Below, one piece after another: positions 1,973 to 32,301 of a stretch of 62,024 nt of DNA (the first letter of the stretch is position 1; each line of letters begins with the position of its first letter). The notes below the pieces were generated by a model. The model saw nothing but the letters and a program-made list of their open reading frames with translations. It was not told the DNA's origin and did not search any database. A program made the position numbers and the translations under genes. Source of the stretch: a virus; the IMG/VR virus record IMGVR_UViG_3300031753_000006, positions 1 through 62,024 of that record. One strand, 5' to 3'.

Positions 1973-1986
1973 TGTAAACTCAGATT
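1953..1986 (+). promoter_or_regulatory. Leaderless promoter before the 41-aa gene
   Basis: TTGCTG at 1953-1958, a 16-base spacer, TAAACT at 1975-1980, then exactly 6 nt (CAGATT) to the ATG at 1987. There is no ribosome binding site. The transcript would begin at or within a base or two of the start codon. Confidence 0.65.
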
Positions 1987-2112
1987 ATGGACGACAAAAA
2001 AGTATCCAAGTCCGGCAAGGACATGAAGCTGAAACTGAAGGTCAAGATGAAAGTCCCAATGGGCATGGCTGGCAAGGCTCCGTCCGTGTCAATGGGCAAG
2101 AAGGGTAAATGA
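1987..2112 (+). CDS. Lys/Met-rich basic micro protein, 41 aa
   Basis: Begins MDDKKVSKSGKDMKLKLKVK and ends in MGKKGK; strongly positive and without hydrophobic segments. The start is fixed by the TAAACT box 6 nt upstream. Its stop overlaps the next ATG as ATGA. Similar Lys/Gly-rich short proteins occur later (12035-12232, 21497-21751) and may coat DNA or bind virion parts. Function unknown. Confidence 0.6.
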   Translation: MDDKKVSKSGKDMKLKLKVKMKVPMGMAGKAPSVSMGKKGK

Positions 2113-2273
2113 AGTTTCGGCCGACCGTCTACGTACGGGATTTGGTTTTGTGGTGCGCAATCGGCCTGCTGGGCGTGATGCTGTACACCGAACATAAGTC
2201 CGCTCGAGAGTTCGAGACAGCGACCCGACAGGGAGTCGAACATGCCCTCCAGCAACTCTTCAATCGGCAGTAA
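2109..2273 (+). CDS. Small membrane protein, 54 aa
   Basis: ATGA overlap with the preceding gene. One membrane span (LVLWCAIGLLGVMLYT, about residues 12-27) is followed by a charged amphipathic helix ending QQLFNRQ. Size and layout suit a holin-like or inner-membrane spanin-like protein, but this is inference. It overlaps another small membrane frame at 2242. Confidence 0.5.
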   Translation: MKFRPTVYVRDLVLWCAIGLLGVMLYTEHKSAREFETATRQGVEHALQQLFNRQ

Positions 2274-2403
2274 GCTGCGCGAGGCCTTCCTAGGGTCGAG
2301 CCACCCGGTGTACCATTTTATTGTACTCACGCTGGCTCTTTATGTTGCCGTTAAGGTTCACCGCTGCCATTCTACTTGCCATCGCCAGCCTAGTTCTCGC
2401 TGA
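2242..2403 (+). CDS. Small membrane protein, 53 aa, overlapping
   Basis: Starts inside the previous gene in another frame (ATG at 2242) and encodes MPSSNSSIGSKLREAFLGSS, then one span (HFIVLTLALYVAVKV) and a basic His/Arg/Cys tail. The nested arrangement with 2109-2273 recalls overlapping lysis genes, but no lipobox is present. No clear ribosome binding site. It may be real or fortuitous. Confidence 0.4.
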   Translation: MPSSNSSIGSKLREAFLGSSHPVYHFIVLTLALYVAVKVHRCHSTCHRQPSSR

Positions 2404-2539
2404 CTCCTTCCAGTCCACCTCCGCACCCTCCGTGGTAAACTGTGGGCATGAAGCGTCTTGTTGCCGCTGTAGTAGTTGTCCTCATCGGAATTGTCATGAT
2501 GATTCCGACCGCCGCCCAATCGGTCCTCACGTCGAATGA
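2342..2539 (+). CDS. Possible exported Cys-rich protein, 65 aa
   Basis: Frame beginning MLPLRFTAAILLAIASLVLA, a good signal-peptide-like start. The tail after residue 33 has six cysteines within about 20 residues. It overlaps 2242-2403 and the start of the gene at 2448 in different frames, so at least one of the three is probably not real. The Cys-rich tail may be only the shadow of the signal-peptide codons of the 2448 gene. Kept as a low-confidence call. Confidence 0.25.
   Translation: MLPLRFTAAILLAIASLVLADSFQSTSAPSVVNCGHEASCCRCSSCPHRNCHDDSDRRPIGPHVE
2436..2447 (+). promoter_or_regulatory. Leaderless -10 box (TAAACT + 6 nt + ATG)
   Basis: TAAACT at 2436-2441 and GTGGGC before the ATG at 2448, with no ribosome binding site. 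Same box and spacing as at 1975 and 32290. I see no convincing -35. Confidence 0.55.
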
Positions 2540-2801: not shown

Positions 2802-2807
2802 GGTGGC

Positions 2808-3539: not shown

Positions 3540-3547
3540 TTCCCGTC

Positions 3548-5020
3548 ATGAAAACCCTAATCCTATTAGCCATATATCTTGTTAATAGCGACCTCAACCA
3601 AACTGGAGCGTTTTCGGATACAACGCTAACTACGTCTAACGTAAATACCTCCACGTTTGGGAAGGTCAGTTCCTACCACGTAGACGTCCCCACATTCACC
3701 CAACCTATCATAGCGCCCTCGATTGTCATAAACGGGACACCCCGTGACCTACTTCTGTTTACAACAATGACAAATAAGGTGTACGCGTTTGATGCGAATA
3801 GTTTTGGGTTACCGATTTGGAAAGTCACGCTTGGGACCACGAGAAGTATCTTCCCCTCTCGAGGCGTGGGAAATGAGACTAGGTGGACTGAAATAGGAAT
3901 TTTAGGTGCCCCCGCCGTTGATACTTCGTTGAATGCACTTTTTGTTGTCGCTGCTCTGCCCGCTACGTATCGTCTTTTTAAGGTATCCCTTCTAGATGGA
4001 TCGATCATAAATAGCACCGACATAACCGGTCAGGTTACCGGTACGGGTGATAGCGGAGATATGGTTGTGGGTGGTAAACTGCAATTCTCCGCCGCACAAC
4101 ATCTCCAAAGAACCGGCCTAACCATCGCAAATGGGAATGTCTATATCTGCTTCGGCTCGTTAGAAGACACCCGGCCTTGGCATGGGTGGGTCTTTGCGTA
4201 TACTGAATCCAACCTATCCCAAGTCGGTGTTTTTTGTACTACTCCATCGTCTTTTGGAGGGGGGATTTGGCAATCCGGCGGTGCGCCCTCCGTTGATGGT
4301 TCAGGAAACGTCTATGTTGTAACTGGAAACGGTAATTCCATTTCAGATGGTGTTGAATTAGGAGAGTCTATACTTAAACTAAGCCCAACACTTTCCCTTC
4401 TCGATTGGTTTACTACATCCTCCTTTTCAACCCTCGATCCCATAGATGCTGATATTTCTTCTGGTAGAGCAATACTCATCCCCGGTACGTCAAAAGTAAC
4501 GGCCGCTGGCAAGGACTTCACTGTTTACTCAGCGGACACGGCCTGCATGGGACACCTACAGGGATCGAATATCAACTGCACACTACAAACGTTCAAATCC
4601 AACGTAGCGGGTGTAGTCTCAGATACAACCGGCTCATATGGGAGTGTCCTAGTAAACAACAAACTCTACGTACCCACTACCGATGGTTCCATTTACGGAT
4701 TCACAGTCTCGTCCGGTGTGTTTAGCGTAACCCCACTAGCAACCCAACTGAACACCTACGGATTTCCAGGCACGGCGCAGATTTCCTCCTCTAACGGTAT
4801 AATCTGGACAGTCACGTCTACAAACGACAGTCACCTCAACCCCGCTAGCGGAACTCTGCGCGCCCTAAACGCCAGTACCCTAACCGAACTGTGGAACTCA
4901 GACCAAACTCCCGGTGATACTTTAGGGCACATGGTTAAATATGTCGGCCCAACTGTATACAACGGCAAAGTCTACGTACCCAACCAAGACGGGCAGATCC
5001 AGGTGTATGGGCTACGTTAA
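3548..5020 (+). CDS. Secreted PQQ-type beta-propeller protein (host-like)
   Basis: A 490-residue protein with a short hydrophobic start (MKTLILLAIYLVNS) and repeated propeller-blade motifs: KVYAFDANS near 76, NVYICFG near 196, NVYVVTGNG near 260, KLYVPTTDGSIYGF near 376 and KVYVPNQDGQIQVYG at the end. The N-terminal pattern 'NVNTSTFGKV...QPI' is one I associate with large secreted propeller families of Acidobacteria and related soil bacteria. No enzyme active site is evident; such propellers are often scaffolds or quinone-independent. Codon use is A/T-shifted like 2808-3539. Probably a moron gene of host origin. Confidence 0.65.
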   Translation: MKTLILLAIYLVNSDLNQTGAFSDTTLTTSNVNTSTFGKVSSYHVDVPTFTQPIIAPSIVINGTPRDLLLFTTMTNKVYAFDANSFGLPIWKVTLGTTRSIFPSRGVGNETRWTEIGILGAPAVDTSLNALFVVAALPATYRLFKVSLLDGSIINSTDITGQVTGTGDSGDMVVGGKLQFSAAQHLQRTGLTIANGNVYICFGSLEDTRPWHGWVFAYTESNLSQVGVFCTTPSSFGGGIWQSGGAPSVDGSGNVYVVTGNGNSISDGVELGESILKLSPTLSLLDWFTTSSFSTLDPIDADISSGRAILIPGTSKVTAAGKDFTVYSADTACMGHLQGSNINCTLQTFKSNVAGVVSDTTGSYGSVLVNNKLYVPTTDGSIYGFTVSSGVFSVTPLATQLNTYGFPGTAQISSSNGIIWTVTSTNDSHLNPASGTLRALNASTLTELWNSDQTPGDTLGHMVKYVGPTVYNGKVYVPNQDGQIQVYGLR

Positions 5021-5032
5021 ACTGAGATCGTA
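5018..5032 (+). promoter_or_regulatory. Near-leaderless -10 box (TAAACT + 9 nt + ATG)
   Basis: TAAACT at 5018-5023 lies 9 nt before the ATG at 5033. Its first three bases are the TAA stop of the propeller gene, so the box is written into the end of the previous gene. No clear -35. Confidence 0.45.
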
Positions 5033-5680
5033 ATGACCAAAACGCTCTCACAGACCTCTCCGCGCGGCCTTGTACCTTCTGGCGCATCTGACGTTGTCTA
5101 CCAAGAATTCCTCGACAAGCTCCACGTTCGCGACAAAGACTCGACTGGACAAATCGTTCGGGAGGCATTGGCTTCGTCCGGCGACCCGCGTTTCCGCGCT
5201 TTCCTCGAGTACACGATGGGCGGCAACCCGCGCCTCTCTCTTGCCCATGTAGCCAAGCAGTGCCAGATCGACATGCTGGAATTCCAAGCATTCTGGCGGG
5301 ACGCGCGAGTTAATCAATCGATCAACAAAGCGATCGACAATCTGCCTGTTCTGACGCAGGATATGATCGACGATGCGCGGACGGATGAGACAACCTGCCC
5401 AGCATGCGACGGCACCGGACAGATCGAGCGCGAGGGCAAGCCCGCGAAGATATGTGCGAATTGTCTCGGCAAGGGTGTAGTGCGGACGGTCGGCGACAAG
5501 CATTCGCGCGACAAATTGCTAGAAATGACGGGCGTGATCAAGAAAGAGGCGCCTGTCCAAGTCAACCTGAACATGCGCGGGATTGGCATGGAAGCCGCGG
5601 CAGCCAAACTGAACAAGGCCGTGCCGTTTGACCTCGACATCGAAGCAGAAACCGTTGACATCCCAGCCGATCCAGAGTAG
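5033..5680 (+). CDS. terS: Putative small terminase subunit with DnaJ-type zinc finger
   Basis: A 215-residue protein shortly upstream of the large terminase. Residues 45-115 are helical and fit an HTH/DNA-recognition domain (HVAKQCQIDMLEFQAFWRD). Two CxxCxGxG-like motifs follow, CPACDGTGQI (C122, C125) and CANCLGKGVV (C141, C144), forming a DnaJ-like zinc site. The acidic tail ends DIPADPE. Small terminases bind pac DNA and activate the motor; a zinc finger is an unusual but reasonable DNA-binding add-on. Assignment rests on position and architecture, not on a recognised signature. Confidence 0.5.
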   Translation: MTKTLSQTSPRGLVPSGASDVVYQEFLDKLHVRDKDSTGQIVREALASSGDPRFRAFLEYTMGGNPRLSLAHVAKQCQIDMLEFQAFWRDARVNQSINKAIDNLPVLTQDMIDDARTDETTCPACDGTGQIEREGKPAKICANCLGKGVVRTVGDKHSRDKLLEMTGVIKKEAPVQVNLNMRGIGMEAAAAKLNKAVPFDLDIEAETVDIPADPE

Positions 5681-5689
5681 ACTCGGTAC
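5655..5689 (+). promoter_or_regulatory. Full sigma70 leaderless promoter
   Basis: TTGACA at 5655-5660, a 17-base spacer, TAGACT at 5678-5683, then 6 nt (CGGTAC) to the ATG at 5690. The whole promoter sits in the last codons of the previous gene, and its -10 includes that gene's TAG stop. This is the clearest leaderless promoter of the genome because both hexamers and the spacing are near consensus. Confidence 0.8.
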
Positions 5690-7847: not shown

Positions 7848-8752
7848 TGGCGCTGGCTCCCGATGCCCTGCATGTCGGCGGTAGCAGCATTCATCGTTGC
7901 AACGAATCGTGGGAATCAATCCAAGCCGATCCTCGCGGCCTTCTCTTGATGTGGCACGAACCGCGCCCAGACGCGCATTACGTCATCTCGTGCGATCCAA
8001 CGATGGGCATCACCGGCTGGACAAGATCCGCGCGCCGAGACGGCGACGAAAAGGTGGATAATTGTGCAATCGAAATCTTTCAGTCCGAGGCCATCAAGCT
8101 CCCTCTTTTTAACGAGGACGGAATTCAGAAGATTGATCCGGCGACGAAGCAACCGGCTTTTGTTAGACGAGATATGCAAGTCGCAGAGTATGCCGGACCA
8201 GTGGACGCTGTTGAAGCAGCCAGGATCTGCAAACTCCTTGGACGGATATATCAGGGTGCCGATGAAGAATACGCCCGCCTCATATACGAAGCATGGCCTG
8301 GGCCAGGGGTACTTACTACTCAGGAGCTATTACGGCTTAATTACTCCAATATCTGGATGTGGGAATACATAACCGGCGAGGCTGAAGAAACCAACCGGAT
8401 GGGTTGGCAGTCGTCCTTCCAATCCCAGAAGATCCTGTGGTTTCGTTCGCGCCGACATTTGATGGAACGAAAGGCCAAGATCTATTCGCAGTGGCTGGTC
8501 GAAGAGTACGCGAACTCGGTCATCGATATGGACAAGATGCGTGCTAAGGCCGCATACGGATACCATGACGATCGAATGCAGGCTGCTAACATGGCTTTCT
8601 GGGCGGCCCACAGGTGGTCGTACGATGAATCCCCGCCAGAGCCGGTGACCGCGAACGCCGAGATGGACTTCCAGAAGTTCGCTCCGACATTAGGTGAATC
8701 AGGCGACTTCCGCGCGGCGTGGGAAGTGAGCGTCGATAACTGGGACGTTTGA
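7847..8752 (+). CDS. terL: Large terminase, nuclease polypeptide (split gene)
   Basis: A 301-residue RNase H-fold nuclease. The first acidic site is in YVISCDPTMG (D50) and the last in YGYHDDRMQAAN (D241-D242), the usual metal-binding positions of large terminase nucleases. ATG at 7847 overlaps the ATPase stop as TGATG, so the two are probably made at linked levels and assemble into one motor. In most phages both domains are one chain. No slippery heptamer is present at the junction, so a programmed frameshift is unlikely. Confidence 0.75.
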   Translation: MALAPDALHVGGSSIHRCNESWESIQADPRGLLLMWHEPRPDAHYVISCDPTMGITGWTRSARRDGDEKVDNCAIEIFQSEAIKLPLFNEDGIQKIDPATKQPAFVRRDMQVAEYAGPVDAVEAARICKLLGRIYQGADEEYARLIYEAWPGPGVLTTQELLRLNYSNIWMWEYITGEAEETNRMGWQSSFQSQKILWFRSRRHLMERKAKIYSQWLVEEYANSVIDMDKMRAKAAYGYHDDRMQAANMAFWAAHRWSYDESPPEPVTANAEMDFQKFAPTLGESGDFRAAWEVSVDNWDV

Positions 8753-8785
8753 CATGCGCAACAATTAGGGTTACACTCCAACCAT
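8748..8785 (+). promoter_or_regulatory. Sigma70 near-leaderless promoter
   Basis: TTGACA at 8748-8753 (its first bases contain the last codon and stop region of the nuclease gene), an 18-base spacer, TACACT at 8772-8777, then 8 nt to the ATG at 8786. No ribosome binding site. Confidence 0.7.
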
Positions 8786-9061: not shown

Positions 9062-9070
9062 TGGTGGTTT

Positions 9071-9572: not shown

Positions 9573-9574
9573 GC

Positions 9575-9589
9575 TACAATACAGGCAGC
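9575..9589 (+). promoter_or_regulatory. Near-leaderless -10 box (TACAAT + 9 nt + ATG)
   Basis: TACAAT at 9575-9580 and 9 nt before the portal ATG at 9590. The -35 side is not convincing, so activity is uncertain. Confidence 0.4.
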
Positions 9590-11569: not shown

Positions 11570-11641
11570 ACTGGGTCAGGTCATCTCCCGACTTGACACC
11601 ACTCAATTCCTACCCCTGTAGTTTGTGGTATTCTGTGGTCG

Positions 11642-15756: not shown

Positions 15757-15790
15757 CGGCCCCAAGGATTACCGTCCGAGGGGCCGTTTT
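15757..15790 (+). terminator. Rho-independent-like terminator after head genes
   Basis: A perfect 7-bp stem CGGCCCC (15757-15763) / GGGGCCG (15780-15786) with a 16-nt loop and TTTT at 15787-15790. It lies between the capsid unit and the phosphatase gene and would reduce read-through from the highly expressed capsid genes. Confidence 0.65.
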
Positions 15791-19573: not shown

Positions 19574-19606
19574 GGTTTAGTGAGTTTAGCCAGTTTAGCA
19601 AGTTTA
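19574..19606 (-). promoter_or_regulatory. Array of TAAACT boxes, 9-bp period
   Basis: On the minus strand the sequence reads TAAACT-tgc-TAAACT-ggc-TAAACT-cac-TAAACC and then ATG (start 19573). Three perfect copies and one variant are phased every 9 bp. The last perfect copy is 9 nt from the start codon, the spacing seen at 5018 and 15797. The first copy contains the TAA stop of the upstream island gene. It could be a multi-start promoter or an operator array. Confidence 0.55.
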
Positions 19607-19798: not shown

Positions 19799-19804
19799 AG
19801 TATA
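19799..19804 (-). promoter_or_regulatory. Leaderless -10 box (TATACT + 6 nt + ATG)
   Basis: TATACT on the minus strand, followed by GAAGAC and the ATG of the island gene at 19792. No strong -35 at 17 bp. Confidence 0.55.
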
Positions 19805-20731: not shown

Positions 20732-20732
20732 T

Positions 20733-21218: not shown

Positions 21219-21430
21219 GTGACGTAATCCCCGACGGCGCGATCACAGCTAATGAATATGCCCATCGGTACGGGATCAGTAATACCACGGCCAGAAGCCA
21301 ATTGGAGAATCTGATTGCCGACGGTAAGATGAAGAAAATACACGTTCATGCGACCTTCTTCGTGCCCACTGGTAAAATAGACTCATGCCCTCCTGCGCAG
21401 AATGGGAAGACGAAGAAACCGAAACGGTAA
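21215..21430 (+). CDS. Small winged-helix/HTH protein, 71 aa
   Basis: GTG at 21215 overlaps the endonuclease stop (GTGA). ITANEYAHRYGISNTTARSQ is a helix-turn-helix and DGKMKKIHVHATFFVP the wing, as in MarR/DeoR-type folds. The C-terminus is basic. It could regulate late genes or assist the nuclease encoded just upstream. Confidence 0.6.
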   Translation: MSDVIPDGAITANEYAHRYGISNTTARSQLENLIADGKMKKIHVHATFFVPTGKIDSCPPAQNGKTKKPKR

Positions 21431-21582
21431 TCGACCTATTCTTCCTTTGGGACAACTGCGGGCACGGGCATGCTAAAATCACAACTGAGGTACAACATGG
21501 CCGATCGACCGTCTTTCCCGCCCGACAAAGCACCCAGCGACACAATGGCTGGCATCCACTCGCCCGCCGGTTTCAACGGTAA
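21385..21582 (+). CDS. Possible overlapping protein, 65 aa
   Basis: ATG at 21385 stands exactly 6 nt after TAAAAT (21373-21378), the leaderless layout. The frame starts MPSCAEWEDEETETVIDLFF. It overlaps the end of the winged-helix gene and the start of the next gene, so only the first part may be meaningful, or the box may serve the gene at 21497. Confidence 0.3.
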   Translation: MPSCAEWEDEETETVIDLFFLWDNCGHGHAKITTEVQHGRSTVFPARQSTQRHNGWHPLARRFQR

Positions 21583-21751
21583 GCCCGGTTCCCCCGGCGA
21601 CCGCAAGGCCCCGACGAAGCACTATCCGTCCACTACTGCGATGGTGCCGAAGCGCGCTAATGTGATCGACGGCCCCGGCAAGGGTTGTGGCATCACTGGC
21701 GAGAACGGCAAGAAAAGTTCTGGGTATCAGAAGCCCGGTGGCGGCCAATAA
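21497..21751 (+). CDS. Pro/Gly/Lys-rich basic protein, 84 aa
   Basis: ATG at 21497 with GAGG 7 nt upstream; an earlier in-frame ATG at 21470 lacks a site. Disordered, basic and rich in Pro, Gly and Lys (FNGKPGSPGDRKAPTKHYPS). Resembles the other small basic virion-module proteins here. Function unknown. Confidence 0.55.
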   Translation: MADRPSFPPDKAPSDTMAGIHSPAGFNGKPGSPGDRKAPTKHYPSTTAMVPKRANVIDGPGKGCGITGENGKKSSGYQKPGGGQ

Positions 21752-21775
21752 AATAGGCCATCTCTAACAGCACGA

Positions 21776-21787
21776 TATAATTGAGTC
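21776..21787 (+). promoter_or_regulatory. Leaderless -10 box (TATAAT + 6 nt + GTG)
   Basis: Perfect TATAAT at 21776-21781, then TGAGTC, then the GTG start at 21788. No -35 match at 17 bp. Confidence 0.55.
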
Positions 21788-23143
21788 GTGCCCGGTCCTC
21801 CGCCCTACACTCAGTACACTCTCACAGCTCTGACCACAGAGATCAGCAACCTCCTTGCCGATCCGACGCAGAAGTACTGGACTGTACCGGAGATCCAGTA
21901 CGCCATCCAGGAGGGCATGTATGTCTGGGGTGCGTTGACATCGTACTGGCGTGACAGTTCCCCGTTCAATCTCACTCCGAACGAGGGGATCTACGACCTG
22001 TCAGTCAAACTACCGGCCTTGCGCACAAGATCTTGGACGCTGGGCCAGATGGTCGCCGACATCCAGTACTCTATCCTCGAGGCGCCAAACGGCATTTTGG
22101 GCACTGGGATGTCCGGACAAACGACCGTGACGGCGATCCTGAATGCGATCAATCGAGCGAGAAACCGGTTCATTCTCGACTCTGTGCTGCCGTTCACAGT
22201 TACTTCAATGCCGGTTCTTTTGCCGCCATCTACTGGCGTCGTAACTTTCGCAAACAACATAGGTTACCTGCATCGGGCGGCGTGGAAAGATGGGCCTAGC
22301 GGTACGTGGACAAACCTGTGGCGGCAAGACAATTATTCGGCCGACGCTGGCCTGTACCAATGGGGCACGACCACAGGCACGCCGCGGATCTTCAGTGAGT
22401 CCAATCTGACGCCGCTGGAGTTGCAGCTCATCCCACCGCCAGCCGCTGCTGGAATCCTGCAAACGATCAGCGTCATGTCCACGATGCTTGACCTCACAAA
22501 GTCCGGCACAACGTTCAACATACCGGACGAATGGATCCACGCGATCAAGTGGGGCGCGCTGTCGGAGTTGCTATCGGTCGACTCACTGATCGCCGATCCG
22601 GCTCGTGCTCAATACGCGAACACGAGATACCAGCAGGCCGTGGACTTCGCCAAGAACTCGAAGTCGATTATTCGATTACGGTTTGGCAACACCCCACTGA
22701 TGATCGATACGTTCCAGAGCATCGACGCTGGAGTACCGATGTGGCGCAACCAACAGGGAACTCCACAGATGGCGGGCATCATGTACGATCTAGTGGCCAT
22801 CGTGCCGGGATCGCCGCAGGTTGCGTATACCGTGACTGCCGACGTCGTCCAATCAGCCCCTATCCCGTTGATCGGCACGGACGACATAGATCTCGGCCCA
22901 GAGGACATCGGCCACCTGATTGATTACGTAGTCCACATCCTCACATTCAAGTGCGGCGGTAAAGAGTTCGCGTCCACGTATAGCCGTTACAACGATTTCA
23001 TGGACGCCGTCTCGTTCCGCGGCCAGATCAACAAAGCGCGGATTCAGTACCTCAAGCCGACGATGGAACAGCCGTCGATGGAAGAGGGAGAACGGCCAGA
23101 TGTCTATCAGTTGCAGTCAACTAAGAAGGGAGGCGGCAAATGA
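21788..23143 (+). CDS. Second neck/tail adaptor-type structural protein, 451 aa
   Basis: N-terminal helices (LLADPTQKYWTVPEIQYAIQ, WGALTSYWR) repeat the general pattern of the first adaptor. A beta-rich middle and a helical C-terminal part (IGHLIDYVVHILTFKCGG ... MDAVSFRGQINKARI) follow. Such proteins connect the neck to the tail hub. GTG start set by the leaderless TATAAT box. No enzyme motif. Confidence 0.5.
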   Translation: MPGPPPYTQYTLTALTTEISNLLADPTQKYWTVPEIQYAIQEGMYVWGALTSYWRDSSPFNLTPNEGIYDLSVKLPALRTRSWTLGQMVADIQYSILEAPNGILGTGMSGQTTVTAILNAINRARNRFILDSVLPFTVTSMPVLLPPSTGVVTFANNIGYLHRAAWKDGPSGTWTNLWRQDNYSADAGLYQWGTTTGTPRIFSESNLTPLELQLIPPPAAAGILQTISVMSTMLDLTKSGTTFNIPDEWIHAIKWGALSELLSVDSLIADPARAQYANTRYQQAVDFAKNSKSIIRLRFGNTPLMIDTFQSIDAGVPMWRNQQGTPQMAGIMYDLVAIVPGSPQVAYTVTADVVQSAPIPLIGTDDIDLGPEDIGHLIDYVVHILTFKCGGKEFASTYSRYNDFMDAVSFRGQINKARIQYLKPTMEQPSMEEGERPDVYQLQSTKKGGGK

Positions 23144-23358
23144 CGATTCTAGTGGATTGTTACTATTGCGGCTGTCCAGTTCACTTCGATCCTAGTGGGA
23201 AGTTGGCGGCGCTGGGGATCACTGTCGCGACTTGTGAAGAGCATAACCTCGCGGTGATTTGCAGCCTCTGCACAGATATGATGGAAGTAGAGGGAGTGGA
23301 AGTCGAGATTGTGGACGAGAATGAACTGAAGAAAAGGATCGAGAAGGAAGCTGCGTAA
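23140..23358 (+). CDS. Small zinc-binding protein, 72 aa
   Basis: ATGA overlap with the previous gene and TAATG overlap with the next. CYYCGC near the start plus CEEHNLAVICSLC suggest one zinc site; the C-terminus is acidic. Probably an assembly or regulatory factor made with the tail genes. Confidence 0.6.
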   Translation: MTILVDCYYCGCPVHFDPSGKLAALGITVATCEEHNLAVICSLCTDMMEVEGVEVEIVDENELKKRIEKEAA

Positions 23359-25997
23359 TGCCGGATATCGCGAAACAGACACTGCGGATGGATTGCGCGG
23401 GCGTGGATTTGCGTGCGCCGCTCGATGCCATGCCTCCCGGCCACTTCCCCTACCTGGATAACGTTCGTGTGGTCGAGGAGGGAAGGCTCGAGGCACGGCC
23501 GGGATACACCACATTCAATACCGTCGCGCTCTCCACCAAGGCTCTACATTCGATCCGCCGTCTGAACGACGCCGCAATGTTCTTTGCTGCGGCGGGGTAT
23601 ATCTACGTTGTGGGGAATGGCACAACGCTGTGGGCTGGAACCGAGAATGCACTAGCACAGATTGACACTGGCTACTCCGGTAACCCACTGTCCATAATCA
23701 ACTTCCGGCCAGAGAACTCGCCGTCCTCCTTTGCGTATGTGTACGACGCCAACAAGATGACCAAGGTGCGGCCGGACGGCACACTGCGGCCCATTGGCGT
23801 GGTCCCACCGCTCAACCCGGCACTGACTGAAGCTGACTATGGGCCACCGGCAATGGCAGTGCTCGACGAAGGACAATCAATAACCGGGTGGACAATTGGC
23901 GCCGGCTCCTCTTTCTCGGTCATCAATCTGGTCGATCGACAGGGATCTGGCGGCGGAAATGACGGCACGATCGGGTCGATCACGTATAACAGTGGGTCAA
24001 CTGGTTGGTGCTGCATCGTACCGAGCAGCCCGGTGAGCCCGAACTGGGCGGGTAGTCGGATGCGCGTGCTACTCAACAGCGGCGGTGGCAATCAAGAGAC
24101 GGTGCTCGTGCGAGAGATCCACCCGGCGATCGTGAGTACGACCGTGCAAGCAGTGCAGTATGACAGCGGTAATTCGGGTGTATGTTCATTGGTTCTAGTC
24201 AACTCGCCGACCGGTCTGACGCGCAATTCGATGGTGACAATCGCGGGCAACCTGTACCGCGTGCTGGCCGTGATCCCGTCGCCGGACGGCACTACGTACT
24301 CAGTGCGATTGAACAGTGGCGCCCACACAATCGCGGCGGCTGATGCCGTGGTGGGCAAGATCTCTTGGTATACGTACACCATCCAGACTCACGCGGCGGC
24401 CGAGACGTTGACTGCTCAATGCGTATATGCGCGCGGCACCAGTTTCGGTGGTGCGAGCGCAGTATCAAACATCGCACGGCTGGTTGCGGTGGACGCCTCA
24501 AAAGCGAACAATCGTGCGGTCGATCTAGCGAACGATTACATGCACATTTCGTTCTGGGCCACGGTGGGGGCTGGGGTCAAGCAGGTCCGACTGTACCTGG
24601 ATGTGGACGCCGGGACGTCGTCTCTGGCCAACGCCTTCACTAATAACTACTTCATCTTCACTCTGACGCCCGCACAGTTGTTCGGTGCGAATGCCGCGCC
24701 CACAGGTGGGTCATGGAACGAACTGTTGATTCCACTGTCGTCAGGGGTGAGGGTGGGCAGTGATCCCACGCGCAACCTATCGAACGTCCAGGCGTTGAAG
24801 ATCGAGGTCACACAGACACAAGCGGGCGATATCGCGTTCGATTGGTGGTACTTGTTCGGCACGTACGGGCCTGTCATCCAGCCCAATTCTCCTGTAGGAT
24901 ACCTGTATGAGACTCGTTACCGCGATTCTACGACTGGTGCCGCTTCAGTTCCTGGCCCTCCTACTCGATACAGTCTTAACCCTTTACGGGAAGAGGTACT
25001 TGTCACTCCACAAACAACCGCAGCGCCAAGTGTTGATTCGGACGATGTATATAGACAAGGAGGAACACTTTCAAATTTTACATTTGACGGAACAGTTGCA
25101 AATAATAACGGATCCCCCAACACGTTCCATGACGATTTCAGTGACAATTCGATAGGGGCCAATCCAGCCGCCGATCTTACCCTCATACAGCCTTGGTCCG
25201 TTGTCGACAACGTCTGGACCGGCACCATCAACGTCGTCGGAACCTCAGTAACCTGGGTCAGCGGCACGCAGTTCAATCCAGCGTGCGTGGCTGGCACTGT
25301 GATCATAATCAATGGCGTTGCCTATCAGATGTACGGCAGCCCGATCTCTTCGACCTTCCTTGAGATCACCTCGTCAGGCGGTGTGCAGACTGGAGTCACA
25401 TTCACTGTGGCCAACCCAATTCTCACCGGACAAGCGTTGCCATTTGCGTTCGGGCCACTCGAGGGTCCGTTCGCACCAGTCGTGTTCGCACTAGGCGACC
25501 CAAAGAATCCCGGCACGCTCTACTTCACGAACGCAGCCAACTTGGACGGTGCCAGTGACCTGAACACACTGGAGGTCGCACCACCGAGCGAACCGCTGAT
25601 CTCTGGAGCGGTGTGGAACGGACTAGTGTTCGTGGGATCGAGAGATAACGTGTACCTAATACGGTACACATACTTGTTGAGTCCTGGCAGCAGCGGCCCT
25701 GGAACGTTCCAGGTGAACCGGCTTCCATCGCCTTCCGGTATCTGGTCGCGATGGGCTTGCGTGCGTGGCCAAGACGGAGTGTACTTCCTTGGGCGAGACG
25801 GGATCTACCGCGCGACTGAACAAGGAGTCGTGAGTGTGACCGATCCATCGCTGTACCCGCTATTCCCGCATGACGGTGGTAGTTTGCCATCTGGATTCAA
25901 AGTGAACGGAGTGCCCGCGCCAGATATGACGGCGCTATCATCGTTGAGGCTGACCGCCGCTGACAATGATATCTACTTTGACTACACGCCGATCTAG
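23358..25997 (+). CDS. Tail hub protein, large N-terminal part
   Basis: An 879-residue beta-rich protein that opens with a pattern common in short-tail hub/nozzle proteins: DLRAPLDAMPPGHFPYLDNV, RLEARPGYTTFNT. Jelly-roll-like modules lie in the middle, and a second block near 760-870 (LIRYTYLLSPG, GVYFLGRDGIYRATEQG) is propeller-like. It ends at TAADNDIYFDYTPI, where I would expect the chain to continue. That continuation appears to be the C-terminal half of the next gene. It forms the tail tip below the adaptor. Confidence 0.6.
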   Translation: MPDIAKQTLRMDCAGVDLRAPLDAMPPGHFPYLDNVRVVEEGRLEARPGYTTFNTVALSTKALHSIRRLNDAAMFFAAAGYIYVVGNGTTLWAGTENALAQIDTGYSGNPLSIINFRPENSPSSFAYVYDANKMTKVRPDGTLRPIGVVPPLNPALTEADYGPPAMAVLDEGQSITGWTIGAGSSFSVINLVDRQGSGGGNDGTIGSITYNSGSTGWCCIVPSSPVSPNWAGSRMRVLLNSGGGNQETVLVREIHPAIVSTTVQAVQYDSGNSGVCSLVLVNSPTGLTRNSMVTIAGNLYRVLAVIPSPDGTTYSVRLNSGAHTIAAADAVVGKISWYTYTIQTHAAAETLTAQCVYARGTSFGGASAVSNIARLVAVDASKANNRAVDLANDYMHISFWATVGAGVKQVRLYLDVDAGTSSLANAFTNNYFIFTLTPAQLFGANAAPTGGSWNELLIPLSSGVRVGSDPTRNLSNVQALKIEVTQTQAGDIAFDWWYLFGTYGPVIQPNSPVGYLYETRYRDSTTGAASVPGPPTRYSLNPLREEVLVTPQTTAAPSVDSDDVYRQGGTLSNFTFDGTVANNNGSPNTFHDDFSDNSIGANPAADLTLIQPWSVVDNVWTGTINVVGTSVTWVSGTQFNPACVAGTVIIINGVAYQMYGSPISSTFLEITSSGGVQTGVTFTVANPILTGQALPFAFGPLEGPFAPVVFALGDPKNPGTLYFTNAANLDGASDLNTLEVAPPSEPLISGAVWNGLVFVGSRDNVYLIRYTYLLSPGSSGPGTFQVNRLPSPSGIWSRWACVRGQDGVYFLGRDGIYRATEQGVVSVTDPSLYPLFPHDGGSLPSGFKVNGVPAPDMTALSSLRLTAADNDIYFDYTPI

Positions 25998-26005
25998 GTA
26001 CGACT

Positions 26006-27700
26006 ATGCCATTTAATCCACCAAAGCAGATCGCTAAGGGGTTTGGGACTCCGTCGTGGACATTGCCATTCTCATCCAACGTAACTTCAGGCAATATCAT
26101 AATCGTGTTCGGCACTCTTACTGGGGCCGGGGCTGGATCGGCCAACCCTACTGACAATCTGGGTAACACATACATACGAGCAGTAGCACAAACCGACGTT
26201 GCTGGAGCTGGACTAAACGTATGGTATTGCTTCTCGATCGCAGGTGGGGCTTGCACACTTACTTTTCCTTCAAATAGCGCCAGTGTTGTGATCATGGCCG
26301 AGTACAACATGACGTCCGGCAGTTTGGACGTGGCCAACTCATCTACCAATGCCACTATTCCGTTCAGCATCACGACTACGCATGCGACAGAACTTCTTGT
26401 TGCGGTGTGCATCAACGGGTTACAGCCGACTACATGGGGTGTCAGCGGCAGCTTCGTAATCGAGACACAAGAGGATGCGTCTAATCCGCAGCCGGTCAGT
26501 CTCGTGTTGTGCGACCAGACGGTTAACTCGACTGGCACATACAGTGTGTCTTTCACTGAGGCGCCGTCTTTTTCAGCGGACGGAGCGATTCTCGGTTTCT
26601 TCGGCACGGCGATGACCGTGAATTGCAATAATCCGCCAGTTGGAACTGTGGGCGTTCCGTACACCACAACATTCACGGCTTCGGGCGGGACGGCTCCTTA
26701 CACCTTCACCATCTCTGCTGGATCATTGCCGCCTGGTATCACGCTGGCAAGTAACGGTGTCGCATCAGGAGTGCCGACGGCCTCTGGGTTGTACAGCTTC
26801 ACAGTGCAGGCTACGGATGCTACGTCGGCTACTGGGACTGCTGTATGCACGATCAACATCCTAGCCCCGACTACACTTCGGTTCGAGATCCCTAAGAAAC
26901 GGTGGTTCCCGCATGCGTACGCCGACACGATTGTCACGCATTACTTGGATGAGACGTTCTTGGGTAACGTGAACAAGGAGCAGTTGTTGCTGCTCTCGGC
27001 CGCAAAGGGATTTATATATACCAGTGGAGGGGATACGGACAACGGATCCGTGATTCCGAGCACGGTTATCACACCGTCGATGGATGGTGGTGACCCAAGG
27101 ATACAGAAACTATATGTCGACATCATGACTGATCTGGATGGCACCGGCACGGTTAAAGCGACCGCTCAGTTCAATAATCAGACGACAACTGGCGCGACTG
27201 TGTCTTACACACCTATTGGAACCAGAATCCAGCAGTTGCAGAATATATCGTCTCTGTCGTCATTGAACCTATACCGTAATCTGTCCGTCGCGTACACTTG
27301 GACTGGTGGTCCCGACGGCCCCCGCCTGTACATCTGTGAGCCGGCTGGGTATGCACAACCGTACATCTCAACGTTCATCGTGACACAGTTCATCAACCTA
27401 GCCTTCCCTGGTTGGAAGCACCATCGCCAGCTCTACGCTGGTTACATCAGTAACAGCAACGTCCTCTTTACGATCAAGACACAGGACGGACGGACGTATG
27501 GACCATATACGCTGCCGTCGACCGGCGGCCAGTTCCAGATCATCACGGCAAAGTTGGACCAGAACATTAAGGATCTAGCGTTCGCGTATCAGTTGGATGG
27601 ACAAGGGCAGAACTTCGTCTTATTCCCCGAGGCGTTCACGATCGAAACGAAAGAGTGGACAGAGCCGAGTTACATCCCGCTCGCCATCTTCAAGACGTGA
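26006..27700 (+). CDS. Tail protein: host-like adhesive modules fused to the hub C-terminus
   Basis: Three parts. Residues 1-200 form a lectin-like sandwich (PTDNLGNTYIRAVAQT, NVWYCFSIAGG) of a type I associate with soil-bacterial surface proteins. Residues 207-285 are a PIG/cadherin-like domain (VGTVGVPYTTTFTASGGTAP). From 291 (LRFEIPKKRWFPHAYADT) the chain reads as the missing end of the preceding hub protein and then a conserved tail domain. A module insertion with a new start appears to have cut one hub gene in two. The graft may add host-surface binding. Confidence 0.6.
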   Translation: MPFNPPKQIAKGFGTPSWTLPFSSNVTSGNIIIVFGTLTGAGAGSANPTDNLGNTYIRAVAQTDVAGAGLNVWYCFSIAGGACTLTFPSNSASVVIMAEYNMTSGSLDVANSSTNATIPFSITTTHATELLVAVCINGLQPTTWGVSGSFVIETQEDASNPQPVSLVLCDQTVNSTGTYSVSFTEAPSFSADGAILGFFGTAMTVNCNNPPVGTVGVPYTTTFTASGGTAPYTFTISAGSLPPGITLASNGVASGVPTASGLYSFTVQATDATSATGTAVCTINILAPTTLRFEIPKKRWFPHAYADTIVTHYLDETFLGNVNKEQLLLLSAAKGFIYTSGGDTDNGSVIPSTVITPSMDGGDPRIQKLYVDIMTDLDGTGTVKATAQFNNQTTTGATVSYTPIGTRIQQLQNISSLSSLNLYRNLSVAYTWTGGPDGPRLYICEPAGYAQPYISTFIVTQFINLAFPGWKHHRQLYAGYISNSNVLFTIKTQDGRTYGPYTLPSTGGQFQIITAKLDQNIKDLAFAYQLDGQGQNFVLFPEAFTIETKEWTEPSYIPLAIFKT

Positions 27701-27708
27701 GGTAGACC

Positions 27709-28653
27709 ATGCCTGGAGCGCCGCCACTTAATCCGATCACACAACAGGTCTTCCAGACGTTCTCTCGCCTGTCCGTGCCGCCCGAGCACGAGACGATGCA
27801 GGGCGTGATCTCGGACATCTATAACAAAATACAAGCCGTGCAGGCCGGGTCGCAGACGGTGCAGGCGCAGATACCCACCACGGCGGCCATCACACAAATT
27901 GCACAATCAGTCGCCATTCCGGCATCGGCAGCGGTGTTACCTACGGCTCTGAATGCGATCGTGCCTATCGTCCTTGCCCAACCGAACTCGACCTCACCTC
28001 TCCGCGATCAGAATGGCAACGTCGTGACTGCGGTGGACGGTGCAGTCGTCGCTTGGAATATCGGTGGAGCGGATGCCGGTGTGTTCTACCAATTCACCAG
28101 AGCGTCGGCCGTTTGGTCGTACGTAAGTGGGTACGTGGCAAGACAGCAGAATCAGTTGGCGACGTTGGCAGGACTGTTGGGGCCGTCGGACACTGGGCTG
28201 TTGGTCGATGTGACTGATTACGCCCACATCCTCAAATGGACCGGGACGGCCTGGACATATGCCGATCCATCCGATCCCGCCGGTCGTATCGAGATGTTCC
28301 TAGTCGATCCCAACCCTGTGACTGGATGGCACTTGTGCGACGGAACAGCCAATGTCCCGTACCTGAAGTTTGACGGCACAACACCCACACAGACACTACC
28401 AGACCTGATCAGCACGACGGCCAAGGCAGCGTATGCCAAGTTGGGTTCTCCAGTGTCTGGATCGCCGGTCGCAGCCACGGCGCCCACATTCACTGGGAAT
28501 GCGCAGACATTCACTACCACGCCCGCCGCGGCGTTCGTGTCTGGGTCGCAAGTCGACGCCTTCACCGCACCGAATCCATACACGCCAACCGGGTCAGTCA
28601 GTGCCACGGGAGAACCGAGAAACATTGTACTTAGGCCGTGGTTCCGTACTTGA
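27709..28653 (+). CDS. Tail fibre / tail-collar-type protein
   Basis: A 314-residue protein with an N-terminal helical tip-binding part (about 1-60), a middle with WNIGGADAGVFYQFTRASAV, and a collar-like module near 190-235 (PVTGWHLCDGTANVPYLKF). The C-terminus RNIVLRPWFRT is typical of collar-domain fibres. Likely part of the receptor-binding apparatus. Confidence 0.6.
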   Translation: MPGAPPLNPITQQVFQTFSRLSVPPEHETMQGVISDIYNKIQAVQAGSQTVQAQIPTTAAITQIAQSVAIPASAAVLPTALNAIVPIVLAQPNSTSPLRDQNGNVVTAVDGAVVAWNIGGADAGVFYQFTRASAVWSYVSGYVARQQNQLATLAGLLGPSDTGLLVDVTDYAHILKWTGTAWTYADPSDPAGRIEMFLVDPNPVTGWHLCDGTANVPYLKFDGTTPTQTLPDLISTTAKAAYAKLGSPVSGSPVAATAPTFTGNAQTFTTTPAAAFVSGSQVDAFTAPNPYTPTGSVSATGEPRNIVLRPWFRT

Positions 28654-28665
28654 TATACTGGGATT
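28654..28665 (+). promoter_or_regulatory. Leaderless -10 box with extended TGn
   Basis: TGA (stop of the fibre gene) directly followed by TATACT (28654-28659), then GGGATT and the ATG at 28666. The stop codon supplies the TG of an extended -10. Confidence 0.65.
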
Positions 28666-29058
28666 ATGGCGAACGAGATTTCGGTCACTTCGGCCCTTAC
28701 GTATACCAACACGGCGAATGGCATTGCCGCGACCACTCTACAGATCGGTGGGGCGAGCAATAACGCTCTATTCAACATCAGCGGCAAGAACTTCGTCTAC
28801 GCGACCAAATCGTTCACTACTGGCGCGGGTGGAACTGCGATCCCTCTCGGCGCGGTTGGCACGCTTGGATGGGTAGCCATCAAGAACAACGACGCCGCGA
28901 ACTACATTCAAGTCTTGACGGCGGTATCTGGCACTGTCTTCCTTCGTATCAACGCTGGAGAGATGGCCAGCTTCCGGTTCGACCAAGGCGTGACTGCGCC
29001 GGCTATCCTCGCCAACACCGCTTCAGTCCTTACCGAATACATGATCCTGGAGAACTGA
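28666..29058 (+). CDS. Small tail beta-sandwich protein A, 130 aa
   Basis: A 130-residue beta protein: MANEISVTSALTYTNTANG ... ISGKNFVYATKSF ... VLTAVSGTVFLRINAGEM. It is a close tandem duplicate of the following gene, with the same length and almost identical second half. Such sandwiches cap fibres or bind surface sugars. Leaderless start. Confidence 0.6.
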   Translation: MANEISVTSALTYTNTANGIAATTLQIGGASNNALFNISGKNFVYATKSFTTGAGGTAIPLGAVGTLGWVAIKNNDAANYIQVLTAVSGTVFLRINAGEMASFRFDQGVTAPAILANTASVLTEYMILEN

Positions 29059-29450
29059 TGGCCAACGAAATTCAAGTGACGTTGGCGTTACAGTACACCA
29101 ACGCCGCGCAGTCCATCCCGCCCACGTTACTACAGATCGCCGGTACGGCCAACCAGTCTCTCTTCTCGATCAGCGGCAAGAACTTCACGGACGGCACCAA
29201 GTCATTCCCGACTTCGGCCGGTGGGACGGCAATTCCGTTAGGTGGCGTTGGCACCCTCGGATGGGCAGTGATCCGCAATCTTGATCCAACGAACTATGTG
29301 CAGGTTCTAACCGCGGTATCCGGCACGGTGTTTCTCAGGATCAACGCTGGCGAGGCCGCGCTGTTTCGATTCGACCAAGGTGTCACGGCACCCGCTATCC
29401 TCGCCAACACCGCGGCTTGTGTCTGTCAATGGCTTATCCTCGAGAATTGA
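29058..29450 (+). CDS. Small tail beta-sandwich protein B, 130 aa (paralogue)
   Basis: TGATG overlap with copy A. MANEIQVTLALQYTNAAQS ... ISGKNFTDGTKSF ... LTAVSGTVFLRINAGEA. Most differences are in the first 55 residues and near 115-125, suggesting diversified loops on a shared core. The pair may form heteromers or give two binding specificities. Confidence 0.6.
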   Translation: MANEIQVTLALQYTNAAQSIPPTLLQIAGTANQSLFSISGKNFTDGTKSFPTSAGGTAIPLGGVGTLGWAVIRNLDPTNYVQVLTAVSGTVFLRINAGEAALFRFDQGVTAPAILANTAACVCQWLILEN

Positions 29451-29462
29451 TACAATGGGTGC
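29451..29462 (+). promoter_or_regulatory. Leaderless -10 box with extended TGn
   Basis: TGA stop of protein B followed directly by TACAAT (29451-29456), GGGTGC, and GTG at 29463. Same design as at 28654. Confidence 0.6.
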
Positions 29463-29918
29463 GTGAGCACTGCCAACAAGCCTATTGAATTCAAACCAGT
29501 TGGAGAGGATGAACCAACTCCCGCAACCCCTGCCCTAGACGTCCGACTCCTCACCACAGAGGAAGTCGAAACCCTCCGACCTGAATTCGAGGCACAAAGA
29601 GCGGTCTTCCCGAACCCGCAGACTTCGTTTGCCGTGGGTGCTGTGGATGCCGACGGTAAGGTGGTCGCCTTCCTATTCTTCCAGTTGCAAGTTCACGCCG
29701 AGCCGATGAAGATCGATCATCCGCACGAAGCGTTGTTCAGTCGATTGGTCGATGTCGGCGAACGGACACTGGTCGAGCGGTGCGGGTCGCAACTGGTATA
29801 TGCCTTTACGCCGCCGGGTAAGATCACGAGGTTAGCACAGATGGCCGGTATGCAGATTGAGCCGTGGGTTGTCATGAGCAAGATCGTTGGGCCGCCGGGA
29901 GAGGAGGTGATCCAATAA
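29463..29918 (+). CDS. Putative GNAT-like protein, 151 aa
   Basis: After a Pro-rich start the sequence follows an acyltransferase-like alternation: LLTTEEVETLRPEFEAQRAV, TSFAVGAVDADGKVVAFLFF (central strands), ALFSRLVDVGERTLVERCG and AGMQIEPWVVMSKIVG. The acetyl-CoA loop is not obvious, so it may be a fold relative without activity. It is placed between tail and internal virion genes. Confidence 0.4.
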   Translation: MSTANKPIEFKPVGEDEPTPATPALDVRLLTTEEVETLRPEFEAQRAVFPNPQTSFAVGAVDADGKVVAFLFFQLQVHAEPMKIDHPHEALFSRLVDVGERTLVERCGSQLVYAFTPPGKITRLAQMAGMQIEPWVVMSKIVGPPGEEVIQ

Positions 29919-30448
29919 TGTTCGGACCAAGTAGTGGTGAATCAGCAGCTTCAACGGCACAGCAAGGATTCGGCATTCCAGCTCTGGGACAAGGCACGAC
30001 CAATCTGCAAACCGGCGCGAACTTCTTTCAGACGTTGCTTGGGGGCAACAAGGCGAACACGGAAGCACTGTTACAGCCAGACATCAACCGGATCAGAGAG
30101 AGCACACAGGGCGCATTGCAGGGTGTGTCGACGCTTATGCCGCGCGGTGGAGGTCGGTCAGCCACACTATTCCAACAACCCTTCGCGGCACAGAGTCAGA
30201 TCGGTAATTTGTTCAGTGGATTGAGATCTGGAGCGGCCGGTGGATTAGCACAGATCGGCGGCCAGCAAGCACAGATCGGGCAGACGTCGGCGCAGAACCT
30301 GTTCCAGAACTCGATGCAGCAGCGGCAATACCACGACCAGCAGATGGCCAAATTGGCTCAAGGCATCTTCGGTCTTGCGACGTTGCCATTTGGTGGTGGG
30401 TCGGCGACCGGCGGGTTACTCGGTGCCATTCCGGGGATTGGAGGTTAA
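29918..30448 (+). CDS. Internal virion / DNA-ejection protein, 176 aa
   Basis: TAATG overlap with the previous gene, and GAGGAGG 8 nt upstream. Gln/Ala/Gly-rich helical protein (SQIGNLFSGLRSGAAGGLAQ, QQAQIGQTSAQNLFQ) with a hydrophobic Gly-rich C-terminus. Composition and position before two large low-complexity proteins fit an ejection protein of a short-tailed phage. Confidence 0.55.
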   Translation: MFGPSSGESAASTAQQGFGIPALGQGTTNLQTGANFFQTLLGGNKANTEALLQPDINRIRESTQGALQGVSTLMPRGGGRSATLFQQPFAAQSQIGNLFSGLRSGAAGGLAQIGGQQAQIGQTSAQNLFQNSMQQRQYHDQQMAKLAQGIFGLATLPFGGGSATGGLLGAIPGIGG

Positions 30449-32299
30449 ATGGGCGCGTTCATAACAGGTTTGGGCGAGGGGGCTGCGAACTACGGAACGC
30501 AGCAACGTTCGCTCGAGAACCAGAGAACCATCACCGGCATGCAACAGTCCGGTGAGACACAACGGCTAGCGATGACCCATTGGGAAAACCAGCGTCAGGC
30601 TCTGGCCGGCGCGATCCAGCAGGCCGCGATGTCCGAACCGGTCGGCAGTCCTTTGCGCCATCAGTACCTCGATGCATGGACCCGTCTACTCGGCGAAAAA
30701 CCCGGCGCCAAACTGGACGCTTACCACACCGAATTCTCGCAATTACAGAATCATGCTCGAGCGGCCGATCAGGAAGGGCAGATTGCCTCCGCGGCGACCA
30801 GAGCCGCCTCCCAACCCATATCCGGCCCTCCCAATCCAGCCTCACCTGGGCAAACTCCCGGTGCGACCCCGACGATCCCGCCGATGCCTGGGCCATCCGG
30901 TATGCCGGAACAACGTCTGGGCGGTCCACTAGCCGCGCAACCGCCCACATCGCCTGTCCAACCGATCACACAGACAGGAGGGGCTGGCGGCCAAAATGCC
31001 GCGTCTCCCTTTCCGGACACCGCCGTTTCTGCCTCAGCAGTCCCAACAGCCGCACCAACAGGCGCTGGGGCAGTTGCTAATCAAGGCAGTGCAGGGCCTT
31101 CCCAATCTGTTCCGTCGATAGACGATCTGTGGAACTCGCCAATGTCGCCGGCTGAGCGGGCTGCGATGGCGCCGATGCATTACGGCCCGCAGTTTGCGGA
31201 TGCCATCAGCAAGATCCCTGGAATTGACAAGTTCCCGCTGCTAGCCACTGAAGCGAAGTTGCAAGCGTATGGGCTTAAGCCAACGCCGATGGCGGGACTA
31301 ATCCGGCCGATCAACGTACCGGGATTGATCCCCGCACCGCCCGGAGCAACCAGTGCGCTGGATGGTTCACCTATCAGTACACCGTACGTTCGTGTGCAAA
31401 GGAGTTTGATAGATAACACTGAGCAATACTACCCAGAGTATGGTACTACCTCGCCGACAGTAATGCCGGATCCAAACTCCAAGACCGGGTTCTCGCGTGT
31501 GGTGTTTGATACGCAAGGGCAAGAGATCAGCCGGGTTACCGGGGCCACGCCGCCGGGACAGTTCGTACCCAAGGTCACCAAGTCGGAGAAGGAAACGGTT
31601 GTTGACTTTGGCGATCACAAGGAGATTTGGCCGGTCGGTACAGAGACAGTGACGCAGGGGGTTATTCCAGGGCAGGATCCCAAGGGGAATGCCACACCGG
31701 CACCGACGTCCAACCTACCGCACCCGCTCATTCCCGGCCCGTCGGTACCACCCGCCCGCAACATCGGCGAGAAGACACTGACACCGAACCAAGAGATGAC
31801 CAGTGAGCAAAAGCTGGGACAGTACCAACTGGCCAAAGATCGTGCGCAGATGGTCATTCAGAACGCTCCCATGCTTGCTTCGTTGATCGAATCTGGCAAG
31901 CTGGAACTCGAGCTGGACACCGACGGTTTCCTCAAGGCTATTGTGAACCGCTCGATGCCAATGAACGCACGAGAGGCACAATTAGCGTCGGACTTCATCA
32001 CCTTGTCGGAAGACATCAACGTTCTCCGCGGGCCGCTGGGCGCCACTGGATTTCGTGGTCCTGAAGCGTTTCAGCGATTGCAAGCGCAGAAAGGACAATT
32101 GCTCGCCCGGCCGGAGATCACCGTGGGTGTGTTGCAGAATACCATCCAAGCGTTGAACCGACAGATCGGGCCGATTCAGAAACGTGTGGGTGTGTCGCCA
32201 CCCGCCGCGCAGCCGACGCCTAACGAACAGCCGACACCAGCCGGTCCCGCCATGTCCAAGACCGCACAGGAATACCTGAAAAAGAGAGGTAAACTGTAG
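30449..32299 (+). CDS. Large internal virion / ejection protein, 616 aa
   Basis: GGAGG 4 nt before ATG. Helical Gln-rich start (residues 1-110), a long disordered Pro/Gly/Ala region (about 115-240), a middle domain (SPAERAAMAPMHYGPQFADA) and a charged helical domain at 455-585. No enzymatic motif is seen. Its size and composition suit an injected inner-core protein that helps DNA cross the envelope. Confidence 0.55.
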   Translation: MGAFITGLGEGAANYGTQQRSLENQRTITGMQQSGETQRLAMTHWENQRQALAGAIQQAAMSEPVGSPLRHQYLDAWTRLLGEKPGAKLDAYHTEFSQLQNHARAADQEGQIASAATRAASQPISGPPNPASPGQTPGATPTIPPMPGPSGMPEQRLGGPLAAQPPTSPVQPITQTGGAGGQNAASPFPDTAVSASAVPTAAPTGAGAVANQGSAGPSQSVPSIDDLWNSPMSPAERAAMAPMHYGPQFADAISKIPGIDKFPLLATEAKLQAYGLKPTPMAGLIRPINVPGLIPAPPGATSALDGSPISTPYVRVQRSLIDNTEQYYPEYGTTSPTVMPDPNSKTGFSRVVFDTQGQEISRVTGATPPGQFVPKVTKSEKETVVDFGDHKEIWPVGTETVTQGVIPGQDPKGNATPAPTSNLPHPLIPGPSVPPARNIGEKTLTPNQEMTSEQKLGQYQLAKDRAQMVIQNAPMLASLIESGKLELELDTDGFLKAIVNRSMPMNAREAQLASDFITLSEDINVLRGPLGATGFRGPEAFQRLQAQKGQLLARPEITVGVLQNTIQALNRQIGPIQKRVGVSPPAAQPTPNEQPTPAGPAMSKTAQEYLKKRGKL

Positions 32300-32301
32300 C
32301 A
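32290..32301 (+). promoter_or_regulatory. Leaderless -10 box (TAAACT + 6 nt + ATG)
   Basis: TAAACT at 32290-32295 and GTAGCA (containing the TAG stop of the previous gene) before the ATG at 32302. No ribosome binding site. Confidence 0.6.

Follow-up and report, generated by a model that had tools for sequence, protein, structure and literature searches.

Upstream of many start codons in the virus record IMGVR_UViG_3300031753_000006 lies a hexamer of the form TAnnnT that resembles a bacterial -10 promoter element, and it is these hexamers, called boxes in the following, and the genes behind them that the present analysis deals with. The window, by which we mean the whole stretch of DNA analysed, is 62,024 bases long and has a G+C content of 55%; no tRNAs were found in it. 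Its right half, coding mostly on the minus strand, holds genes for DNA polymerase A, a helicase, a uracil-DNA-glycosylase/exonuclease, a VapE-like protein and a cluster of sugar-modifying enzymes, and its left half, coding mostly on the plus strand, holds the structural genes, including those for large virion proteins and the following landmarks:

6597: terminase-like gene
9590, plus strand: portal gene
13698: major capsid gene
17194: tail-like gene
18487: endolysin-like gene
21788, plus strand: gene for an SU10-type adaptor

The candidate -10 boxes and the elements that accompany some of them are listed below, with distances to the start codon in nucleotides (nt); the last four stand before weak open reading frames (ORFs).

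1975 to 1980, plus strand: TAAACT, 6 nt before ATG 1987 of a 41-amino-acid basic protein
2436 to 2441, plus strand: TAAACT with TGG ahead as extended -10, 6 nt before ATG 2448 of a protein with a signal-peptide-like N-terminus
5018 to 5023, plus strand: TAAACT, 9 nt before ATG 5033, the preceding gene ending in its TAA
5655 to 5660, plus strand: -35 element TTGACA, 17 base pairs (bp) from the box at 5678
5678 to 5683, plus strand: TAGACT, 6 nt before ATG 5690, the preceding gene ending in its TAG
8749 to 8754, plus strand: -35 element TTGACA, 17 bp from the box at 8772
8772 to 8777, plus strand: TACACT, 8 nt before ATG 8786
9575 to 9580, plus strand: TACAAT, 9 nt before ATG 9590 (portal)
15757 to 15786, plus strand: GC-rich hairpin followed by TTTT, terminator-like (-21.4 kcal/mol, z -3.9), directly upstream of the box at 15797
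15797 to 15802, plus strand: TAAACT, 9 nt before ATG 15812 (histidine phosphatase superfamily)
19583 to 19588, minus strand: TAAACT, 9 nt before the ATG at 19573
19799 to 19804, minus strand: TATACT, 6 nt before the ATG at 19792
21776 to 21781, plus strand: TATAAT, 6 nt before GTG 21788 (SU10-like adaptor)
28654 to 28659, plus strand: TATACT with the upstream stop TGA as extended -10, 6 nt before ATG 28666
29451 to 29456, plus strand: TACAAT with the upstream stop TGA as extended -10, 6 nt before GTG 29463
32290 to 32295, plus strand: TAAACT, 6 nt before ATG 32302, which also has a moderate match to a ribosome binding site
11629 to 11634, plus strand, weak: TATTCT, 7 nt before ATG 11642 of an 84-amino-acid ORF with a low coding score
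21373 to 21378, plus strand, weak: TAAAAT, 6 nt before ATG 21385 of a 65-amino-acid ORF with a negative coding score
61803 to 61808, plus strand, weak: TATACT, 8 nt before ATG 61817 of an ORF near the record end with a negative coding score
320 to 325, minus strand, weak: TATCCT, 8 nt before the ATG at 311 of a 62-amino-acid ORF with a low coding score

These hexamers sit within 2 bases of where a first-pass annotation had placed them. The spacers that it had given as 6 nt are indeed 6 nt, and those that it had given as 7-9 nt are 7 nt for 11629, 8 nt for 8772, 61803 and the box near 320, and 9 nt for 5018, 9575, 15797 and the minus-strand box at 19583. Four of the gene starts assumed there, those at 11642, 21385, 61817 and 311 (minus strand), belong to weak ORFs with coding log-odds of 3.5, -5.9, -7.6 and 4.8, respectively; the start at 2448, missed by the gene caller, is probably right because it restores the signal-peptide-like N-terminus. 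On the minus strand, the box before the ATG at 19573 is one of three TAAACT copies (19583, 19592 and 19601, within 19583-19606) with an exact 9-bp spacing, and the L005 ortholog of gene 29463 has TAGAAT at 7 nt.

Genes were called from coding statistics, and their starts were picked by coding score and codon type only, a procedure that is blind to promoters. At the 71 starts, TAnnnT was found 7 times at a spacer of 6 nt (0.55 expected, binomial p = 2e-6; other estimates of the expected number lie at 0.6-0.8) and 5 times at 9 nt (p = 2e-4; 4 times in a re-run), once at 8 nt and never at 7 nt, and the counts at other distances were close to background, the highest being 3. Dinucleotide shuffles of the upstream regions (n = 2000) yielded at most 5 boxes at spacer 6, compared with the 7 observed, and those of the same regions (n = 2000) at most 11 summed over spacers of 6-9 nt, compared with 12. 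The comparison with shuffled sequence, which the first-pass annotation had proposed as a check, thus gives an excess beyond all 2000 shuffles both at spacer 6 and at 6-9 nt summed.

One could argue that dense gene packing places TAA and TAG stop codons and AT-rich junctions in front of start codons and that TAnnnT arises there by accident, as the boxes at 5018 and 5678, which contain the upstream stop, might suggest. The earlier statement that several boxes use this stop holds in part, namely for these two and, by way of TGA as part of an extended -10, for 28654 and 29451. A stop lies inside only 2 of the 12 window boxes, so that the excess cannot be put down to stops, and the share is similarly small in the phage set (7 of 97). 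The shuffles furthermore fail to reproduce the peak, and an accidental origin would explain neither why the excess is confined to 6-9 nt and missing at neighbouring distances nor the exclusion of ribosome binding sites and the conservation of the portal box described below. We therefore rejected the stop-codon artefact and regard the explanation by chance and stops as a whole as very improbable.

Genes with such a box (TA-led genes) mostly lack a ribosome binding site. The median energy of the Shine-Dalgarno (SD) interaction was -2.9 kcal/mol for TA-led genes against -6.4 kcal/mol for the others in the window (p = 2e-3), -2.7 against -6.4 kcal/mol in the phage set (p = 4e-16), and -3.0 against -5.9 kcal/mol in Acidobacteriota genomes (p = 6e-17). 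Exceptions among the 12 TA-led window genes are 32302 (-8.3 kcal/mol) and, as a borderline case, 15812 (-6.3 kcal/mol).

The boxes could also be promoters of the next transcription unit that overlap the gene starts incidentally, the genes being translated mainly from long polycistronic mRNAs that arise by read-through, either through coupling or through initiation on leadered RNA that needs no SD site. Coupling would be possible because most TA-led genes belong to one co-directional block and often start a few nt after the upstream stop, and it would suit this explanation that gene 32302 combines a box with an SD match and that 14 of the 25 SD-free genes of the left half have no box. However, the SD sites of TA-led genes are far weaker than those of their neighbours, a mere internal promoter would have no need of an exact placement at 6-9 nt, and a strong terminator-like hairpin stands ahead of the box at 15797. 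Because this hairpin (15757-15786) lies directly ahead of the box, gene 15812 plausibly needs its own promoter. Taken together, we consider it improbable that read-through accounts for the layout.

A terminator followed by a leaderless promoter was also considered as a general pair and was rejected, as the phage set showed no association (2 of 102 against 16 of 765, p = 1) with a script that allowed shorter internal loops than that of hairpin 15757-15786, which stands as one clear case. Strong terminator-like hairpins with a T-tract were further seen upstream of the orthologs of tail gene 17194 in L010, L011, L008, L015, L013 and L018, where about 10-21 nt separate the end of the hairpin from the start codon and contain neither an SD site nor TAnnnT. 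In the jumbo phage Tunturi_5 (L232, 1-50 kb), the sequence GTAGGTTGA is repeated at 16252, 18187, 42244 and 43888; three of the four copies place TAGGTT 6 nt before an ATG, and one stands behind a clear terminator-like hairpin. As Tunturi_5 encodes a sigma factor, GTAGGTTGA may be a dedicated leaderless promoter class.

The composition of the boxes points to a promoter element and is more informative than a random TAnnnT, with TAnAAT/TAnACT as the core. In the phage set, position 4 is A in 57% of the boxes, compared with 38% in control TAnnnT, and a perfect TTGACA at 16-18 bp was found for 11 of 104 boxes, compared with 2 of 100 control boxes farther upstream. The TTGACA elements that had been noticed upstream of the window boxes at 5678 and 8772 (2 of 12 boxes) are both perfect and, starting at 5655 and 8749, both have a 17-bp spacer.

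The layout had been described as genome-wide, a description that has to be given up. In the window, 12 of the 40 genes in the left half are TA-led and none of the 32 in the right half (p = 7e-4); counted by virion block, the figures are 12 of 39 against 0 of 32. This split was noticed after seeing the window, and we therefore used the relatives as an independent test: in nine near-complete relatives, 54 of 297 genes in the structural block were TA-led, compared with 30 of 456 in the rest (p = 1.4e-6), the block limits being defined by marker genes and one fixed margin, which were set once in the counting script with no later tuning. Over ten phages including the window, the net excess amounts to 13.2% of genes within the structural block and to 1.1% of those outside it, and the block exceeds the rest in each of the ten, a consistency for which a sign test overstates independence because the phages are related.

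Such a restriction to the virion block is what one would also expect if the boxes were late promoters read by a phage-encoded or phage-modified factor instead of the unmodified host holoenzyme. A candidate could be seen in an 82-amino-acid protein (42209-42457, minus strand) encoded within the glycosylation cluster, which shows a weak match to sigma-70 region 4 or a LuxR-type helix-turn-helix (E = 6.6e-5, below the cut-off). Yet the box core TAnAAT/TAnACT and the TTGACA at a distance of 17 bp belong to the ordinary signals of sigma-70 and resemble the host's own boxes, and no full sigma factor or RNA polymerase turned up among the proteins scanned, so that a dedicated phage factor appears unlikely to us.

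Conservation is seen at the portal gene, where TAnnnT 5-9 nt upstream is kept in 25 of 36 loci of the phage family, a few of which are near-duplicates so that the effective number is somewhat smaller. The portal proteins of these loci share 53-67% identity with that of the window, and hexamers, spacers and flanks vary. In one branch of relatives, the palindrome GTGTAATnATTACAC recurs at the borders between genes roughly every 1.5 kb, with 14 sites in L011, 5 in L012, 4 in L018 and 4 and 8 in L019 and L020, and it also lies upstream of the portal gene in L263, L268 and L273. It is absent from the window, from Tunturi_1 and from the searched part of Tunturi_2, and where it occurs it looks like a phage-wide operator overlapping late promoters.

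The enrichment in candidate host genomes, another check proposed at first pass, was found as well. In eight pooled Acidobacteriota genomes, including Granulicella tundricola, spacers of 6, 7, 8 and 9 nt were counted 46, 32, 17 and 29 times, compared with 9.6 per position, and Escherichia coli showed no peak at 6-9 nt. A protein search matched as sole phage records the Tunturiibacter phages Tunturi_1 and Tunturi_2, which infect Acidobacteriota, and a megablast of the first 25 kb of the window against known phages gave no match; uncultured relatives in IMG/VR are many. As the nearest cultured relatives infect this phylum and the phylum itself uses the layout, an acidobacterial host is likely but unproven. 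A capsid scan of GTDB genomes for the host found nothing, a DNA search with window positions 20001-40000 against 399 Acidobacteriota genomes gave no clear spacer-like match, a search with the DegT aminotransferase (best hit 45%, phyla mixed) allowed no decisive assignment, and tetranucleotide usage was not decisive.

From our point of view, the boxes are most plausibly -10 elements of the host sigma-70 type from which transcripts would begin at the start codon or at most about 3 nt before it, so that leaderless or near-leaderless mRNAs would serve about 30% of the structural-half genes. We put the probability of this reading at roughly 85%, on the strength of positional statistics, SD exclusion, box composition with -35 elements, portal conservation and the acidobacterial peak, and to this extent the analysis, working from sequence, bears out the first-pass proposal of -10 boxes with a transcription start at or next to the start codon and no need for a ribosome binding site. 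Several observations weigh against it. About 3 of the 12 window boxes are expected by chance at spacers of 6-9 nt according to the shuffles, and a recognisable -35 element accompanies 2 of the 14 plus-strand window boxes, most boxes having none. Some relatives (e.g., G307 and G309) show no significant spacer-6 peak individually, and neither Tunturi_1 nor the sampled 50-kb parts of Tunturi_3 and Tunturi_4 show an excess at 6-9 nt, from which it follows that the host phylum alone does not dictate the layout. Tunturi_3 nevertheless has a single gene (43093-43518, minus strand) at which TTGACA is followed by TATAGT and, after a further 6 nt, by the ATG.

Under the host-promoter reading, the host's RNA polymerase, carrying the main sigma factor, would bind the -10 box, sometimes together with a -35 element or a G two bases ahead of the box, and would start transcription 6-9 nt past the box, which would place the first nucleotide of the mRNA on the start codon or no more than about 3 nt ahead of it. 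The ribosome would then initiate directly on the 5'-terminal AUG or GUG without an SD site, and boxed genes would therefore need none and could be expressed gene by gene in a tight block. Such a promoter would cost almost no space because the final codons of the preceding gene or a short gap suffice to hold it.

The mechanism proposed is the TA-led leaderless mode that has already been described for Acidobacteriota and Deinococcus-Thermus. Zheng et al. (2011) found TA-led leaderless genes in all three Acidobacteria genomes analysed, at a mean of 13.3% (PMC3160421). Their genes likewise have TAnnnT centred about 10 bp before the start codon, with the first T at about 12 bp, beyond what dinucleotide shuffles give, lack an upstream SD site and occur in the likely host phylum; unlike them, the present case concerns a phage family, is biased to one module and has the more informative core TAnACT/TAnAAT. 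In Deinococcus radiodurans, the same motif 6-7 bp upstream was shown experimentally to be the -10 element driving leaderless genes (PMC12340547). Motif and spacing (about 6-7 bp) are alike, whereas that work deals with chromosomal genes of another phylum and the phage promoters described here are predicted from sequence.

The nearest phage precedent is Thermus phage phiYS40, the middle and late genes of which are transcribed as leaderless mRNAs according to Sevostyanova et al. (2007), as summarised in PMC3594737, which also reports a shift of initiation factors upon infection, IF2 going up and IF3 down. Both systems would use leaderless mRNAs for part of the phage genes, with the difference that transcripts were studied directly in the Thermus phage and are predicted from sequence here, where the structural-block bias is seen in 10 of 10 phages and the block would be expressed late. 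The early gene set of phiYS40 reportedly keeps its leaders. Tunturi_1 and Tunturi_2 (PMC11924767) have homologous terminase, portal, capsid, tail, adaptor, virion protein and endolysin (23-40% identity), yet Tunturi_1 uses GGAGG-type SD sites. The homology of Tunturi_1 ORF30 (L001, about 26677) to the window adaptor reaches upstream of the annotated start at 26734, and the deposited start is hence probably too far downstream. None of the papers covered by our literature search reports leaderless genes for phages of Acidobacteriota, although such a report may exist; new here are the phage family, the preference for the virion module and the conservation of the promoter before the portal gene.

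As to the remaining gene content, the adaptor at 21788 matches the SU10-type adaptor family PF24175 (E = 2e-7, above the curated cut-off), and the portal protein reaches E = 5e-6 and 25.6 bits against the SU10-type portal PF23899, under the cut-off of 30. The sugar-modifying cluster at 34037-43646 on the minus strand, comprising glycosyltransferases, methyltransferases, a formyltransferase and the DegT aminotransferase, suggests a sugar modification, either of glycans at the surface or of the phage's DNA. In L169 (287-2737, minus strand), a contig of L009, a DNA polymerase A homolog carries an in-frame insertion of about 316 amino acids, stop-free between the polymerase parts, that is possibly an intein; no Pfam splicing domain was found in it.

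One could speculate, tentatively and as a possibility rather than an expectation, that this widespread soil phage family with its probable Acidobacteriota hosts combines a leadered, SD-dependent replication half with per-gene leaderless promoters of the host type in much of the virion half, and that the ribosome's preference for leaderless mRNA would thereby drive a translational early/late switch with the portal as its most conserved client. What is documented of leaderless expression in phages comes mainly from phiYS40 and from single genes in lambda. In practical terms, gene-finding programs that look for SD sites can set the starts of such genomes wrongly, and hosts in phyla that use leaderless genes may be hinted at by a TAnnnT profile. 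A family in which many virion genes are predicted to be leaderless would offer a testable system for the competition of leaderless mRNAs during infection.

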